This document shows, in pieces, positions 12,550 through 62,666 of a stretch of DNA of 64,000 nt. The position numbers and the translations under genes are program-made. Source of the DNA: Actinomycetes bacterium (lineage in GTDB: Bacteria; Actinomycetota; Acidimicrobiia; Acidimicrobiales; Palsa-688); assembly GCA_021828475.1 (NCBI GenBank), contig JAJZIY010000002.1:1-64000 (forward strand), in the 5' to 3' direction. How positions within the stretch are numbered: the first letter of the stretch is position 1; every line of letters starts with the position of its first letter. The notes under the pieces were generated by a model. It was not told where the DNA came from. It did no database searches and saw only the letters and a list, made by a program, of their open reading frames with translations.

Positions 12550-14784
12550 CTACTGCGGGGTCAGCGAGAAGATCTCCGGGAGGGCGTCGTGCCATGAGGC
12601 GGTGGCCGTCTCCAGCGCCACGTCCAGCTCGTCCCCGATCACCAGGCGGTCGCCCCCGGCCGTCCCGAGGCGGCGGGCCGGCACCCCTGCCGCCACAGCC
12701 CGCTCGAGGATCGCGGCCACGCACGCTTCCGGCACACTCAGCAGCACTCGCGAAGGCCCCTCGCCGAACAGGGCGGCGTGGCCGCCGATCGCCGCGACCC
12801 TGAAGCCGGTGCCCCCGCTGACAGCCATCTCAGCCAACGCCACAGCGACGCCCCCGTCCGAGATGTCGTGCACGCCGTCGACCAGCCGCTCGTTGACGAG
12901 CGAGCTCACGAGGCGCAGTACCGCCACGTGGAGGCCGAGGTCGAGACCGGGCAAAGTACCCCCGAGGTGGCCGGCGCGCTCAGCGGCCCACCTGCTGCCA
13001 GCGAGGGAGACCGCGCCCGGACCGTCCGGGCCGAGCAGCACGATGGCGCTGCCGGCAACCAACCTGGCTGTGGGCACGCCGGGGGCGAGGTGCTCGATGA
13101 GGCCGACGGTCCCGACGACCGGTGTGGGGTCGATGTCACCGCCCCGGCTCTCGTTGTAGAGACTGACGTTGCCGCCGACCACCGGTATGCCGAGAGCAGT
13201 GCAGGCCTCCGCCATCCCGTCGATCGCCTCGGAGAGCTGCCACATCACCTCGGGGTGCTCGGGGTTGCCGAAATTGAGGCAGTTGACCAGCGCGACCGGG
13301 CGGGCACCCGCACAGGCCAGGTTGAGGGCGGACTCTGCAACCACGAGCCGGGTGCCGTGGCGAGGGTCCAGGGCGCACCAGCGCTGGTTGCCGTCTGTCG
13401 ACATGGCCAGGCCCCGCGGGGGGGAGCCGGCGGGCGGCCTGGCACCTGGAGCGGACAGCCGCAGCACGGCCGCATCGGCACCCGGGGCCACCACGGTGTT
13501 GAGGAAGAGCTGGTGGTCGTACTGCCGGTAGGCCCAGGCGGGGTCGGCGAGCATCGCCAGCAGGTCGGCTTGCAACCGCGCGCCCTCAGGAGCAGGCAGG
13601 CGGGACGGCCCGTCCGCAGCCCTCTCGTCCGCCCAGGCCGGGCGGGCCATGGGCCGGTGGTAAAGCGGGGCATCCTCGTGCAGGCTGGCCGCCGGGACGT
13701 CGGCCAGGACCTCACCGTCCCAGCCGGCCAGGATCCGCAGGCGTCCCCCGTCCGTCACACGCCCGACGACAGTGGCCGTCACCTCCCAGCGCCGGCACAC
13801 CTCCATTACGGCATCGAGGTCGCCCGGCGTGACGATTGCCAGCATGCGCTCCTGGCTCTCACTGGTCATGACCTCGAACGGCTCCAGGCCCGCCTCGCGC
13901 AGCGGCACTGCCTCGACGTCGACGTCCATACCGACACCCCCGCGCGAAGCCGTCTCGCTGGTTGCGCAGGTCAGCCCGGCGCCGCCGAGGTCCTGGATGC
14001 CGACGACGAGATGACGGTCCAACAGTTCGAGGGTCGCCTCGATGAGCCGCTTCTCCTCGAAGGGGTCCCCGACCTGGACATTTGGCCGCTTGGCTGCCTC
14101 GGCCTCGGCGTCATCGGTGAAAGCCGCCGAAGCCAGCACGCTCACGCCACCGATGCCGTCCCGGCCCGTCCGCGAGCCGAGCAGGACCGCCAGGTTGCCC
14201 ACGCCGGCCGCCCGCCCCAGCACCAGCCGGTCCTTGGGTAGCAGGCCGACGCAGAGCACGTTGACAAGCGGGTTGCCGGAGTAGCAGGGCGCGAACTCCA
14301 GTTCGCCTCCGACCGTCGGCACGCCGACGGAGTTGCCGTAACCGGAGATGCCGCTCACCACACCGCTCGCAACCCATCGGTTGCGGGCATCGGACGGGGG
14401 CCCGAAGCGCAGGGGGTCCATGAGAGCCACAGGCCGGGCGCCCATCGTGAAGATGTCGCGGATGATCCCTCCCACCCCGGTGGCCGCCCCCTGGTAGGGC
14501 TCGATGGCGGAAGGATGGTTGTGGCTCTCGATGCGCACCGCCACGGCGATGCCCTCGCCCGCGTCCACGACACCGGCGTTCTCCCCGGGGCCGACCAGGA
14601 CCCCCGGCCCGTCGGTGGGCAGCCGGCGCAGGTGCACCCGCGAGGACTTGTAGGAGCAGTGCTCGCTCCACATCACCGCGTACATGGCCAACTCCAGATG
14701 GTTGGGGCCACGGCCCAGGATGCGCTCGATCGACTCCGCCTCGTCATCGGTCAGGCCCAGTTCGCGGTGGATTGGAGTACCCAT
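12550..14784 (-). CDS. purL: Phosphoribosylformylglycinamidine synthase subunit PurL (short form)
   Basis: A 744-residue ATP-dependent subunit of FGAM synthase, which works with PurS and PurQ in step four of purine synthesis. The start [17 protein letters not shown] is typical. Motifs include [44 protein letters not shown], a second-half [11 protein letters not shown] and [10 protein letters not shown]. The length fits the small PurL that lacks a built-in glutaminase domain, and both partners are encoded nearby. The ATG at 14784 is preferred; the frame stays open upstream but into the divergent promoter region. Confidence 0.97.
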
Positions 14785-58248: not shown

Positions 58249-59310
58249 CTAGCCGAAGAGCTCCAGCTGGGCAGCCTCGGTACCGGGCGGGGCGGCCTCG
58301 CCCGCTGGGGCCGTCCGCGTCCGTGATCCTATGGGATGGCGCCGCCCGCCCAGGGGACGCTCTGGCCGCTCCCCCATCACCTCGGCAACGAGGGCGGTGA
58401 GGTGCCGCTGGACCTGCCTGGGCTGGTAGGCACGGTGCAGGAAGCGCCGCTCGTACATCTCCACGAGCTCGGGGCGGTTGGCGGCCAACCAGGACAGGTA
58501 GTGCTCCCTCACTCCTGGGCGCAGGTGCAGCGCGACCGGCGTCACGGACACGGCACCCGCCTCGCTGCAGGCTTGTGCCACCGCCCTGACCTGGTCGTCT
58601 CCGTCCGACAGGCCGGGCAGCACGGGCGCAAGCAGGGCCCCGCACGCAATGCCTGCCTCCCGCAGCCGCCTCAGGGCTTCGACCCTCTTCTCCGGGGGCG
58701 GCGTGCCCGGCTCCGTGAGGCGCCAGACATCACGGTCCAGGGTGCCGATCGACAGGTTGACCCTCACGAACCCGCGCCTGGAGGCTGCTGCAAGCAGGGG
58801 GAGGTCGCGTAGCACGAGGGTCGACTTGGTCAGGATGCTGAACGGGTTGCGCATCTCGGCAAGGACCTCGATGATCCCCCTGGTCAGGTGGTACTTGCCC
58901 TCGGCTGCCTGGTACGGGTCGGTGTTGGTCCCCATGGCGATCAGGTCGCAGGACCACCGTGGTGAGGACAGCTCCGCTCGCGCCCTCTCCACGGCGTTGA
59001 CCTTGACCACCACCCGTCGCTCGAAGTCCTCGGCCGGGTTGAGACCGAGGAGCTCGTGAGTCGGCCGGGCGAAGCAGTACGTGCAGGCATGCGAGCAGCC
59101 TCGGTAGGCATTGATCGTGTACCTGAAGGGCATCCGAGACGCTGCGGGGGCCCGGTTGACGATCGTGCGTGCGTTGACGTGGAGGAACTCGAGGCCGCGG
59201 TACTCGCCTCGGCCGACATGGCGCTCGAAGGGCTGGTAGGCGAAGAGCCGCCCGGCGTCCTCCTCGTCCTCCAGCGGCCATCTGAACCCCTCCGGCGCCC
59301 TCCCAGCCAC
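58249..59310 (-). CDS. Rv2578c-like radical SAM protein, SOS-controlled
   Basis: A 353-residue radical SAM enzyme of the spore-photoproduct-lyase-like group. The cluster motif is GCSHACTYCFAR (CX3CX2C) near residues 71-82, followed by AMGTNTDPYQ, NPFSILTKSTLVLRDL and VNLSIGTLDRDVW, typical of this family. The protein ends QLELFG; QLELF fits the clamp-binding consensus QLxLF. The GTG at 59310 lies 6 nt after TAAGCT, a TANNNT hexamer, suggesting a leaderless message. A LexA box sits at the expected -35. Together these suggest a DNA-damage role; the reaction is unknown. Confidence 0.88.
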   Translation of the reverse strand: MAGRAPEGFRWPLEDEEDAGRLFAYQPFERHVGRGEYRGLEFLHVNARTIVNRAPAASRMPFRYTINAYRGCSHACTYCFARPTHELLGLNPAEDFERRVVVKVNAVERARAELSSPRWSCDLIAMGTNTDPYQAAEGKYHLTRGIIEVLAEMRNPFSILTKSTLVLRDLPLLAAASRRGFVRVNLSIGTLDRDVWRLTEPGTPPPEKRVEALRRLREAGIACGALLAPVLPGLSDGDDQVRAVAQACSEAGAVSVTPVALHLRPGVREHYLSWLAANRPELVEMYERRFLHRAYQPRQVQRHLTALVAEVMGERPERPLGGRRHPIGSRTRTAPAGEAAPPGTEAAQLELFG

Positions 59311-59333
59311 CGGTCCAGCTTACCTGGTTGGAG

Positions 59334-59345
59334 GAACATATGTTC
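59334..59345. promoter_or_regulatory. LexA box (SOS box)
   Basis: GAACATATGTTC is a perfect 12-bp palindrome matching the actinobacterial/Bacillus-type SOS box GAAC-N4-GTTC. It lies 24 nt before the GTG of the radical SAM gene and overlaps the predicted -35 (TAAGCT at 59317-59322 as -10). LexA binding would block the promoter until DNA damage. Confidence 0.88.
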
Positions 59346-59351
59346 GATCAA

Positions 59352-60995
59352 CTAACCAAGCTGCAAATCCCGGCGCAGGAGGCCGCGCCAACCGACCAGT
59401 GCCATGAGGACGCCGGCTCCCACGACGATCCCGTCAGCCTTCCAGTCCACACCGACGGCCGGCGCCGCCGCCATGTGGTGGAAGAGCGAGGTGTCGAGCA
59501 CCCAGTGGCTCTGGGGTGTGAAACCTGCCACCAGGTCGACCAGCGCCGACCACCCCAGCACGGCGTACATCACCGGAACAGTCGCGCGAGGGAGCACACC
59601 GAAGGCAAGGGTGCCGGCTCCCATGACGAAGATCGATGGGGCGAGCATGTTGACGCCTGCGGCCATGACCGACCAGAAGCCGGCTCGTGCACCCTGTAGC
59701 GCCACACCCGCCCAGGACGCTGCGCCGGCAACAAGGCAGCTGAGCACGAGGGAGCCGGTGGCCACGGCCAGCCACGCACCGAACCAGCCGGAGCGGGAGA
59801 CCGGTCCGGCCAGCAGGTGCAGGGCACGGCCCTCCACCTCCTCCCGCCGGGCTGTGGCGACATGGGCCACCGCCTGGAAAGCCACGACCATGGCCAGGAT
59901 GACGAAGGCCACCCCGAGGAAGGCGGCGGCACCGCTCCCCGTAGCACCCAGTCGCGAGAACACCTGGCGGACCGACGACCCCACGATGGTCGTGCCGGAA
60001 GCCTTGGCGACCGTGCCCAGGAGCACGCCCGACGCCGCTAGCACGCAGGCCCACCAGGTGACAGCCGGCCGTGCCAGCCGGAGCGTGAAAGCCAGCGGCC
60101 CGGAAAGCAGTCCCAGCCGTGGCACCCGGGACGAACGGTCGGCCAGGGTCGACCCTCCGACGTCGCGCCGGCCCGCCAAGCACACCGCCGCCCAGGCCGA
60201 CAGCAGCGTTGCGCCCACGATGGGTGCGAAGGCCCAAGGTTGGGGTGCTGTAAGTGGCCTCAGCTGCTCGACCCAGCCCAGAGGCGAGAGCCATACGAGC
60301 CAGTGCAGCCCGCTGACGGCGTCGCCCACCATCCGCAGCCCATAGCTCACCCCGAGGACGACGCCGGCGTAGGAGGCCGCCTGGCGCCGGCTGGCAGCCA
60401 GCTGGCTCGTGAGGGCACCGAAGCCGAGGAAAAGGGCGGCCCCGGCCGTGAGCGCCGTGGCGAAGTACACCGCCGCGGGCGCGCCGACGTGCAGCGACCA
60501 CCGTCCCACAGCGACCACCGCCACCGCGGTGAGCGCCCATACGACGCAAGCAGCTACGGCCAGGCCGCACAGCCCCTGCGTCGCGGCACCAGCCAGATCG
60601 GTCTCGCCGCTGGCGAGCAGCTCCCAGCGGCCGGCGTCCTCCTCCCCGCGCAGCAGACGCGTACTGGTGAGCAGGCCCCACACCGCACCTATGACCATGA
60701 CTGTCATGGACGACTTGAACACCGTGAAACCGGCGACATCCTGCAGTTGCCGGGCAGGGCCGAACAGTGCGCCGGCGGCCAGGTTGTGGCCGAACGCCAC
60801 CTCCAACTGACGGCGCTCGGCAGCCGTCTTGTAGATCCCGGCGTAGCTGACGGCGGAAGACACCACCGTGATGCCGAACACGTAACCCCAGAGCACGGCC
60901 GAGCGCACGGATTTGCGCACCGTCCTCCTGGCGATGACGGTACGGGCAATCAACCGGGCCCACGCCGGAGGCCCCGGTGCGAGCTCAGCCTGCAC
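59352..60995 (-). CDS. ABC-2 exporter permease (polyketide-exporter type)
   Basis: A 547-residue protein with about twelve hydrophobic segments in two similar halves, resembling the large permeases annotated as polyketide antibiotic exporters. The middle loop has LLRGEEDAGRWELLASGE and the second half has TARREEVEGRALHLLAGPVSRSGW, the same E-E/W-R type motif repeated. The GTG at 60995 overlaps the ATPase gene by 11 nt. The substrate is unknown; TetR control suggests drug or toxic-metabolite efflux. Confidence 0.87.
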   Translation of the reverse strand: MQAELAPGPPAWARLIARTVIARRTVRKSVRSAVLWGYVFGITVVSSAVSYAGIYKTAAERRQLEVAFGHNLAAGALFGPARQLQDVAGFTVFKSSMTVMVIGAVWGLLTSTRLLRGEEDAGRWELLASGETDLAGAATQGLCGLAVAACVVWALTAVAVVAVGRWSLHVGAPAAVYFATALTAGAALFLGFGALTSQLAASRRQAASYAGVVLGVSYGLRMVGDAVSGLHWLVWLSPLGWVEQLRPLTAPQPWAFAPIVGATLLSAWAAVCLAGRRDVGGSTLADRSSRVPRLGLLSGPLAFTLRLARPAVTWWACVLAASGVLLGTVAKASGTTIVGSSVRQVFSRLGATGSGAAAFLGVAFVILAMVVAFQAVAHVATARREEVEGRALHLLAGPVSRSGWFGAWLAVATGSLVLSCLVAGAASWAGVALQGARAGFWSVMAAGVNMLAPSIFVMGAGTLAFGVLPRATVPVMYAVLGWSALVDLVAGFTPQSHWVLDTSLFHHMAAAPAVGVDWKADGIVVGAGVLMALVGWRGLLRRDLQLG

Positions 60996-61914
60996 TGGCG
61001 GGCACCGCCTCGGGTTGCTGCGGGCTCTCGCCGTAGAGGGCGAGGAAGAGCTCCTCGAGCGACGGTTCCCTCACCACGAGGCGGGACACCCCGGCCTGGG
61101 CGATGACTGCCAAAAACGGCTCGATACGACCACTCACGCTGGCGCGCAGAACGCCGCCTTCGACCACGGCGCCATCCACCCCTTCCAGGCCGGACAGGTC
61201 GGGCACCCGGCCGGCGAAACGGGCTTCGACGGAAACGGCCGAGAGACGGCGCATCTGGTCCAGGGTGCCGCTCTCGACCAGCCGTCCCTGCCTCAGGATG
61301 GCGACACGGTCACACAGCGCCTCGACCTCGCTCAGGACGTGGGAGGACAGGAAGATGGTCTGGCCCCTGTCACGTGCCTCGGCCACGCTGGCCCGGAACG
61401 CCTGTTCCATCAGAGGGTCGAGGCCGCTCGTGGGCTCGTCGAGCACGAGCAGGTCCGCCCGGGTCGTCAACGCGGCCACCAAGAGCACCTTTTGCCGGTT
61501 CCCCTTGGAATAGGCCCTCACCTTCTTCGAAGTGTCGAGGTCGAAGCGCTCCACCAGCCGGTTGCGGTAGGCCTCGTCCACCCGGCCGTGGACCTGGCCC
61601 AGGACGTGAAGGGTCTCGGCTCCGGTCAGCTCCGGCCAGAGGTTGGCCTCTCCCGGCACGAACGCCAACCGCCGGTGCGCCTCGACGGGACGGCGCTGGC
61701 AGTCCACGCCGAACACCTCGGCCCGGCCCGCCGTAGCCCGGGCGAGCCCGAGCAGCAGGCGGATCGTTGTCGTCTTGCCGGCACCATTGGGGCCCAGGTA
61801 GCCCACGACCTCGCCCGGGGCGACGTCCAGGTCCAGGTCGACCAGGGCGCCCACGTCACCGTAGAACTTCGACAGGCCTTCGATGTGAACCGCGCTGAGC
61901 GATGTCCCGGTCAA
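60985..61914 (-). CDS. ABC-2 transporter ATP-binding protein, TetR-linked
   Basis: A 309-residue ATPase. Walker A YLGPNGAGKTTTIRLLLG near residue 42, signature AYSKGNRQKVLLVAAL (divergent, with SKGN in place of SGGQ), Walker B LLVLDEPTSGLDPLMEQAF and switch FLSSHVLSEVE; a C-terminal domain follows. The TTG at 61914 overlaps the TetR stop (TTGA) and has GGAG 4 nt upstream. The SKGN signature recurs in actinobacterial exporter ATPases and is not a sign of decay. The frame is open upstream but overlaps the tetR gene. Confidence 0.91.
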   Translation of the reverse strand: MTGTSLSAVHIEGLSKFYGDVGALVDLDLDVAPGEVVGYLGPNGAGKTTTIRLLLGLARATAGRAEVFGVDCQRRPVEAHRRLAFVPGEANLWPELTGAETLHVLGQVHGRVDEAYRNRLVERFDLDTSKKVRAYSKGNRQKVLLVAALTTRADLLVLDEPTSGLDPLMEQAFRASVAEARDRGQTIFLSSHVLSEVEALCDRVAILRQGRLVESGTLDQMRRLSAVSVEARFAGRVPDLSGLEGVDGAVVEGGVLRASVSGRIEPFLAVIAQAGVSRLVVREPSLEELFLALYGESPQQPEAVPASAG

Positions 61915-62666
61915 GGTGCTCCGCCTCCTCTGCCTGCGCGCCCCTGCTCTGCGCGCCCCTTGACTGCACCCCCACTGGCCGGGCCCCCACTGGCCGCTCG
62001 CCCCGTGCCCGAACGCCGGCGCACCGAGTGCTCGCGCTCGAGCCTGTCCAGCGCCTTGTAGGCCAACTCGGCCGACCCCTCGTCCAGCAAGGGCTTGGAG
62101 TAGAACTCCAGCTTCGCCCGCGACAGCCGCAAGTGGCCATCCGGGCCGAGGATGTCGGCGCCGAGCTGGCGCGACACCTGAGCCCGCATCACCAGTAAGC
62201 CCACTTCGGTCGCCACCAGCAGTGAGGCGTACGCCCCGGGGTCGGCGACACGACCGCCATGGTGCTCCTGCACCCAGCGCTGGGACGAACCCACCAACTC
62301 GGCGAACATGGCGTCGGCGGCCGGGGAGCCGTCGGCAACAGAGCGGGCGAAATAGCGCAGCAGGAAAAGCACCACCGGGTGAGCTCCCGGCATCGGCCCG
62401 GCACCGGGCTGCCGGCCGTCGAGCAGGATCTCCTCCTTCAGGCGCATGAGGCGGTCCAGTACGTAGGCGTCGCACGCCGCCCGGAGGTCCTCCTTGGAGC
62501 CGAAGTGGTGCCGCACCAGACCCAGCGACACACCGGCCTCGGCGGCGATCTCACGCACCGAGGTGCCCTTTATCCCCCTCTCGGCGAAGAGGCTGACAGC
62601 GGCGTCGCGTATGCGCGCCCGAGCTGTCATGTCCTCACGGGAAGGCGCACCCAACGGACCGCTCAC
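61911..62666 (-). CDS. TetR-family transcriptional regulator
   Basis: A 251-residue regulator. The HTH domain runs RIRDAAVSLFAERGIKGTSV with EIAAEAGVSLGLVRHHFGSKEDL, the TetR signature near residues 20-60. The ligand domain follows; the last 35 residues are a Gly/Ala/Arg-rich tail. It heads the operon with the ABC ATPase and permease and probably represses it. The GTG at 62666 has GAAGGGG 7 nt upstream; an ATG at 62630 is an alternative that loses 12 residues. Confidence 0.92.
   Translation of the reverse strand: MSGPLGAPSREDMTARARIRDAAVSLFAERGIKGTSVREIAAEAGVSLGLVRHHFGSKEDLRAACDAYVLDRLMRLKEEILLDGRQPGAGPMPGAHPVVLFLLRYFARSVADGSPAADAMFAELVGSSQRWVQEHHGGRVADPGAYASLLVATEVGLLVMRAQVSRQLGADILGPDGHLRLSRAKLEFYSKPLLDEGSAELAYKALDRLEREHSVRRRSGTGRAASGGPASGGAVKGRAEQGRAGRGGGAP

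Follow-up and report, generated by a model that had tools for sequence, protein, structure and literature searches.

A radical SAM gene behind a predicted LexA operator in an actinobacterium encodes a probable clamp-docked DNA repair enzyme with the fold of spore photoproduct lyase

The window, the 64-kb stretch of actinobacterial DNA that was analysed, contains on its minus strand a gene for a radical SAM protein of 353 residues. The gene is preceded by a palindromic box of the type GAAC-N4-GTTC, and its product ends in a short motif of the kind that binds the replication sliding clamp. The features of the locus are:

58249-59310, minus strand: radical SAM enzyme gene, an open reading frame of 353 codons with a GTG start at 59310
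59334-59345, no strand assigned: predicted LexA operator (SOS box) GAACATATGTTC, read as TCGAACATATGTTCCT on the minus strand; a perfect palindrome, assigned from SOS genes of the same genome and from homologues
59074-59097, minus strand: codons of the radical SAM signature CxxxCxxC (C72, C76 and C79), invariant in 81 of 81 homologues
58270-58374, minus strand: linker, residues 313-347, poorly conserved by pairwise identity and predicted to be disordered from pLDDT
58252-58269, minus strand: QLELFG, clamp-binding-type motif, residues 348-353, assigned from the conservation of Q348 and L351 and from enrichment over permuted tails

The protein is, as the original prediction had it, a radical SAM protein ending in QLELFG, with CxxxCxxC at residues 72-79. 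In a profile search, the superfamily model PF04055 scores 65 bits, above its gathering cut-off of 29.5. The best NCBIfam match is the Rv2578c family (NF038135), nearly the whole profile of which is aligned, with a score of 379.6 bits, below the curated cut-off of 430. The Rv2578c family is the closest family, and its homologues have the box and the tail in common with the gene described here; the 353-residue protein is a close relative and not a filed member, and no function is assigned to that family. The second-best functional family is PA0069 (NF033668, 248 bits). Its proteobacterial members also have the C-terminal motif and LexA-type boxes, but in LexA dialects of their own, and their sequences have diverged to about 35% identity. 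In many of the homologues from Actinobacteria (L120, L121, L123, L125 and others), a single open frame of ~700 aa includes an insertion of ~350 residues. The insertion fits the intein-containing model NF038136, and the enzyme seems to be a frequent intein host.

The perfect palindrome claimed upstream of the gene was found as GAACATATGTTC. It sits in the 41 bp that separate the GTG start codon from the ABC-permease gene upstream, which ends at 59352; the distance to the GTG is 24 bp for the near edge of the box and 35 bp for its far edge. The claimed position over a predicted -35 element was not confirmed: no sigma-70-type promoter match was found upstream of the radical SAM gene. A TAAGCT located by eye 6 nt before the GTG makes a near-leaderless transcript possible, with the box over the -35 or spacer region. 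The window contains three perfect GAAC-N4-GTTC boxes, with 0.37 expected. The other two are at 14293-14304 and at 61396-61407, the latter within an ABC-ATPase reading frame (60985-62475, minus strand) and probably there by chance. Genome-wide, the pattern is mildly over-represented, with 34 occurrences compared with 27 of a reversed control pattern. Therefore, a single box in isolation proves little, and position and conservation are decisive.

Perfect boxes of the same genome precede lexA (two boxes), dnaE2 (27 bp before the start), uvrA (30 bp), ruvC (6 bp) and imuA' (34 bp), with imuB located behind imuA'. The box of recA has one mismatch. The presence of perfect boxes before these known SOS genes identifies GAAC-N4-GTTC as the LexA operator of this genome, which bears out its earlier assignment as an SOS box. 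Judged by its operator sequence, the radical SAM gene belongs to the textbook SOS regulon of its genome, and LexA is predicted to bind at GAACATATGTTC. A gene for an HNH endonuclease of 403 aa (L003 1598-2806) also has a perfect box, ACGAACATACGTTCTG; it resembles mycobacterial 13E12-repeat genes, which we take to be LexA targets. The sequence GAACTGCCGTTC lies about 84 bp upstream of dnaN, the sliding clamp gene (L012), in poor flanking context. It is possibly a chance occurrence, or a sign of SOS control of the clamp itself.

Conservation of the box and tail was evaluated in 173 homologues. Eighty loci were collected with peptide patterns derived exclusively from the enzyme core, with none from the tail or promoter, and a selection bias toward tail or box can therefore be rejected. 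A further 70 loci were sampled evenly across the phylum, and plasmid-borne and chromid-borne relatives were included. Boxes were counted up to 200 bp upstream of the 151 actinobacterial genes for which the upstream sequence was long enough, and compared with dinucleotide shuffles. A perfect GAAC-N4-GTTC is present at 114 of the 151 (0.70 expected), and one with at most one mismatch at 135 (11.7 expected). The boxes concentrate at a distance of about 20-60 bp from the start codon, and their extended form, TCGAAC-NNNN-GTTCGA, is that of LexA sites. Chance is ruled out as the origin of the box at the radical SAM gene by the operator status of the pattern in its own genome and by this conservation. 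Rv2578c itself presumably also stands in early lists of the M. tuberculosis LexA regulon.

The LexA operators of alphaproteobacteria and gammaproteobacteria are not enriched upstream of the 151 actinobacterial homologues. Seven of ten alphaproteobacterial relatives have a perfect GTTC-N7-GTTC, with 0.05 expected, and none of the ten has a perfect GAAC-N4-GTTC. The PA0069-type gene of Aeromonas has a perfect CTGT-N8-ACAG, CTGTATATATAAACAG, 31 bp upstream (L129 2344-2360). Predicted SOS control of the enzyme thus recurs in three LexA dialects, which argues that its function is tied to DNA damage. Some actinobacterial genomes encode PA0069-like versions (L166-L170, scores of about 235-260) that have QPSLF or QPTLF tails and no GAAC-N4-GTTC, indicating that the tail and SOS control can separate.

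Control of splB genes by LexA has been published for alpha- and betaproteobacteria but was not seen in gammaproteobacteria (PMC3323433), a group whose box is nonetheless perfect at the PA0069-type gene of Aeromonas. LexA control of a splB-like gene has also been published for Bacteroidetes (PMC8565304). In Streptomyces venezuelae, the radical SAM gene vnz_31145 is bound by LexA in ChIP-seq, is induced ~20-fold by mitomycin C, and was described as similar to thymine-crosslink repair enzymes (PMC9380542). We infer that vnz_31145 is the orthologue of the gene studied here. The damage induction predicted for the gene studied here is thus backed by publication in the presumed streptomycete orthologue.

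The AlphaFold model of the protein has a core with pLDDT above 90, followed by residues 321-353 with pLDDT of about 50, a tail that is predicted to be disordered. The best fold match of the model is spore photoproduct lyase (SPL, SplB; PDB 4fhc and variants), as determined by Foldseek and by VIA-align, which aligned 256-269 residues with a Z-score of 19.6 and an rmsd of 3.6-3.8. The next family by VIA-align is NifB, with a Z-score of 16.3. SPL is also the best match of the sequence profile to the PDB (E 3e-5). The protein thus has its fold in common with SPL, its closest structural and profile match. The only invariant cysteines in 81 homologues are the three of the cluster; C223 is shared by 43 of these homologues and C248 by 23. 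The hydrogen donor of SPL, Cys140, mutated as C140 in PDB entries, has no conserved counterpart in the 81 homologues; its placement by profile alignment is ambiguous, and this reading is based on there being no other invariant cysteine. SPL chemistry is therefore not simply transferable, and the lesion or the last step probably differs. The likely reading of these results is a lesion-reversing enzyme that is SPL-like but differs from SPL in its last step or in its substrate.

It is also conceivable that the enzyme is a true analogue of SPL, using the SPL mechanism to reverse 5-thyminyl-5,6-dihydrothymine or dimers related to it. The fold and profile matches agree with this, and published authors have named relatives splB, but the SPL family model TIGR04070 scores only 20.3 against a cut-off of 400, and the donor cysteine lacks a conserved counterpart. 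Moreover, most hosts of the homologues are not endospore formers and do not have the SASP-bound spore DNA that favours the spore-photoproduct lesion. We consider a true SPL analogue unlikely, and an SPL-like enzyme with an altered last step or substrate remains our preferred reading.

The core is connected to the C-terminal motif by a linker that varies in length and sequence among homologues and has diverged too far for alignment. In an alignment of 81 sequences from Actinobacteria, Proteobacteria and more distant relatives, pairwise identity is 0.23 in the linker and 0.48 in the core. Q348 is nevertheless kept in 73 (0.90) and L351 in 69 (0.80) of the 81 sequences, and the distance of the glutamine from the C-terminal end is, with few exceptions, five or six residues. 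QLELF matches the QL[SD]LF type of clamp peptide and is located, according to sequence and model, in a predicted flexible region. Tail statistics were calculated for the last 9 residues against permuted tails, using non-redundant homologues in place of a phylogeny correction. In this way, the strict form Q[LM]xL[FL] was found in 43 of 126 actinobacterial homologues (permutation mean 0.02) and any clamp-type form in 87 of the 126 (0.07 permuted). Clamp-type tails are also present in 7 of 8 alphaproteobacteria, 2 of 2 gammaproteobacteria and 3 of 6 distant relatives. The permuted tails and the divergent linker before the motif rule out a motif that arose by chance.

The observed tails include QLTLL, QLRLL, QLALF, QLSLF and QPTLF, as well as the hexapeptide-like QLALPL and QLGLSL. 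Pentapeptide and hexapeptide-like forms are the two known classes of bacterial clamp binders. The mycobacterial-type QPTLF and some tails ending in L, V or I are less canonical. Roughly 30% of the non-redundant homologues from Actinobacteria have no clamp-type form in the last 9 residues; the motif is slightly upstream in some of these and absent from others. Outgroup radical SAM proteins from Haloarcula, Nostoc and Runella, from Priestia, and the mobile-pair protein B of Selenomonas lack the tail motif. Box and tail are conserved jointly, as would be expected if the original prediction were right: 107 of the 151 actinobacterial homologues combine a clamp-type tail with a box of no more than one mismatch, 28 have the box only, 13 the tail only, and 3 neither.

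The tail resembles that of actinobacterial NucS/EndoMS, a repair enzyme whose extreme C-terminal ...LF tail binds the clamp; the sequence [E/K][L/Y][T/R]LF is required for clamp binding and function in Corynebacterium (PMC8228993). NucS/EndoMS differs from the radical SAM enzyme in being an unrelated nuclease that acts on mismatches. The clamp motif of ImuB is QLPLWG (PMC10421592). Archaeal SplB-like proteins offer a further comparison, since their genes adjoin nreB, and NreB is a relative of NreA, which binds PCNA and acts through it in mitomycin repair (PMC4929162). The archaeal case differs in that the clamp motif, which is less clear there, belongs to the neighbouring protein NreB and not to the enzyme, and the bacterial-type tail is absent from the distant haloarchaeal radical SAM proteins that were checked. 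The archaeal splB-nreB adjacency is a separate, independent connection of SPL-like enzymes to sliding clamps. Our search, which covered literature outside subscription journals, found no link between radical SAM enzymes and clamp-binding motifs; the archaeal NreB review (PMC4929162) was the only relevant paper in it to connect SPL with a sliding clamp. The clamp-type tag and its cross-phylum conservation appear to be new within the literature searched. LexA control of splB-like genes, in contrast, was already known in parts.

The enzyme could be SOS-regulated and yet use its QLxL[FL] tail to dock on another partner, such as a mutasome protein or an electron donor. The motif is a consensus match only, its terminal residue varies among F, L, I and V, and mycobacterial-type tails read QPxLF, all of which leaves room for a different partner. 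On the other hand, actinobacterial NucS uses a like motif at its extreme C terminus to bind the clamp (PMC8228993). Pentapeptide and hexapeptide-like forms of the tail replace one another, and Actinobacteria and Proteobacteria have the motif in common. Whatever the partner is, it must therefore be conserved from phylum to phylum, which is true of the clamp. A mutasome partner was assessed from over-cut-off DnaE2 calls only, as the DnaE2 model also matches DnaE1. The radical SAM gene is present in genomes whose highest-scoring match to the DnaE2 model falls short of the cut-off (G193, G128 and G023) and absent from genomes with over-cut-off DnaE2 (G031, G091 and G113), which makes an obligate mutasome partner unlikely. 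Altogether, docking on a partner other than the clamp appears quite improbable.

A damage-induced radical SAM enzyme might instead modify a target other than DNA, for example a tRNA, a peptide or a compound of the nucleotide pool. The superfamily is chemically diverse, and other radical SAM folds also match the model. SPL is nevertheless clearly above these folds, and SOS control in three dialects combined with a clamp-type tail is hard to explain for an enzyme that does not act on DNA, so that we regard a non-DNA target as very unlikely. A tail motif packed on the enzyme's own core would agree with its fixed distance from the C terminus, but is highly improbable given the variable length and sequence of the linker and the pLDDT of about 50 for residues 321-353.

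We consider it likely that the gene encodes an SOS-regulated radical SAM enzyme with the SPL fold, which acts on damaged DNA while docked to the clamp by its QLELF tail. In several bacterial classes this little-studied enzyme is nearly always found with both a LexA-type box and a clamp-type tail, which makes a role in DNA repair, induced by damage and linked to replication, very probable. In the proposed mechanism, LexA bound at GAACATATGTTC would repress the gene for this [4Fe-4S]/AdoMet radical enzyme, and RecA-stimulated cleavage of LexA after DNA damage would release it. The globular core, which spans approximately residues 22-312, would then perform a radical-based reaction on its presumed substrate, damaged DNA, most likely one in which a covalent base lesion, for example an intrastrand crosslink, is reversed directly. 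The flexible tail of ~35 residues would insert QLELF into the hydrophobic pocket of the beta clamp. Such docking may deliver the enzyme to forks or gaps, in a manner comparable to the C-terminal tail of NucS and the motif of ImuB.

More tentatively, we speculate that the Rv2578c/PA0069 group as a whole may be a widespread bacterial class of radical SAM enzymes that, tethered to the clamp and controlled by the SOS response, act at stalled forks and there directly reverse a DNA lesion that is common and not specific to spores. The lesion could be, for example, an inter- or intrastrand crosslink, and its reversal would be error-free where translesion polymerases otherwise act. To our knowledge, few enzyme classes reverse lesions directly, namely photolyases, alkyltransferases, AlkB and SPL. 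An SOS-induced, clamp-docked radical SAM group would be a further such class, broadly distributed and with members among the relatives from mycobacteria and streptomycetes. The tail, being conserved, provides a handle, as its mutation would separate recruitment from catalysis, and through mitomycin and UV phenotypes the role of SplB-like enzymes outside endospores would become directly testable.
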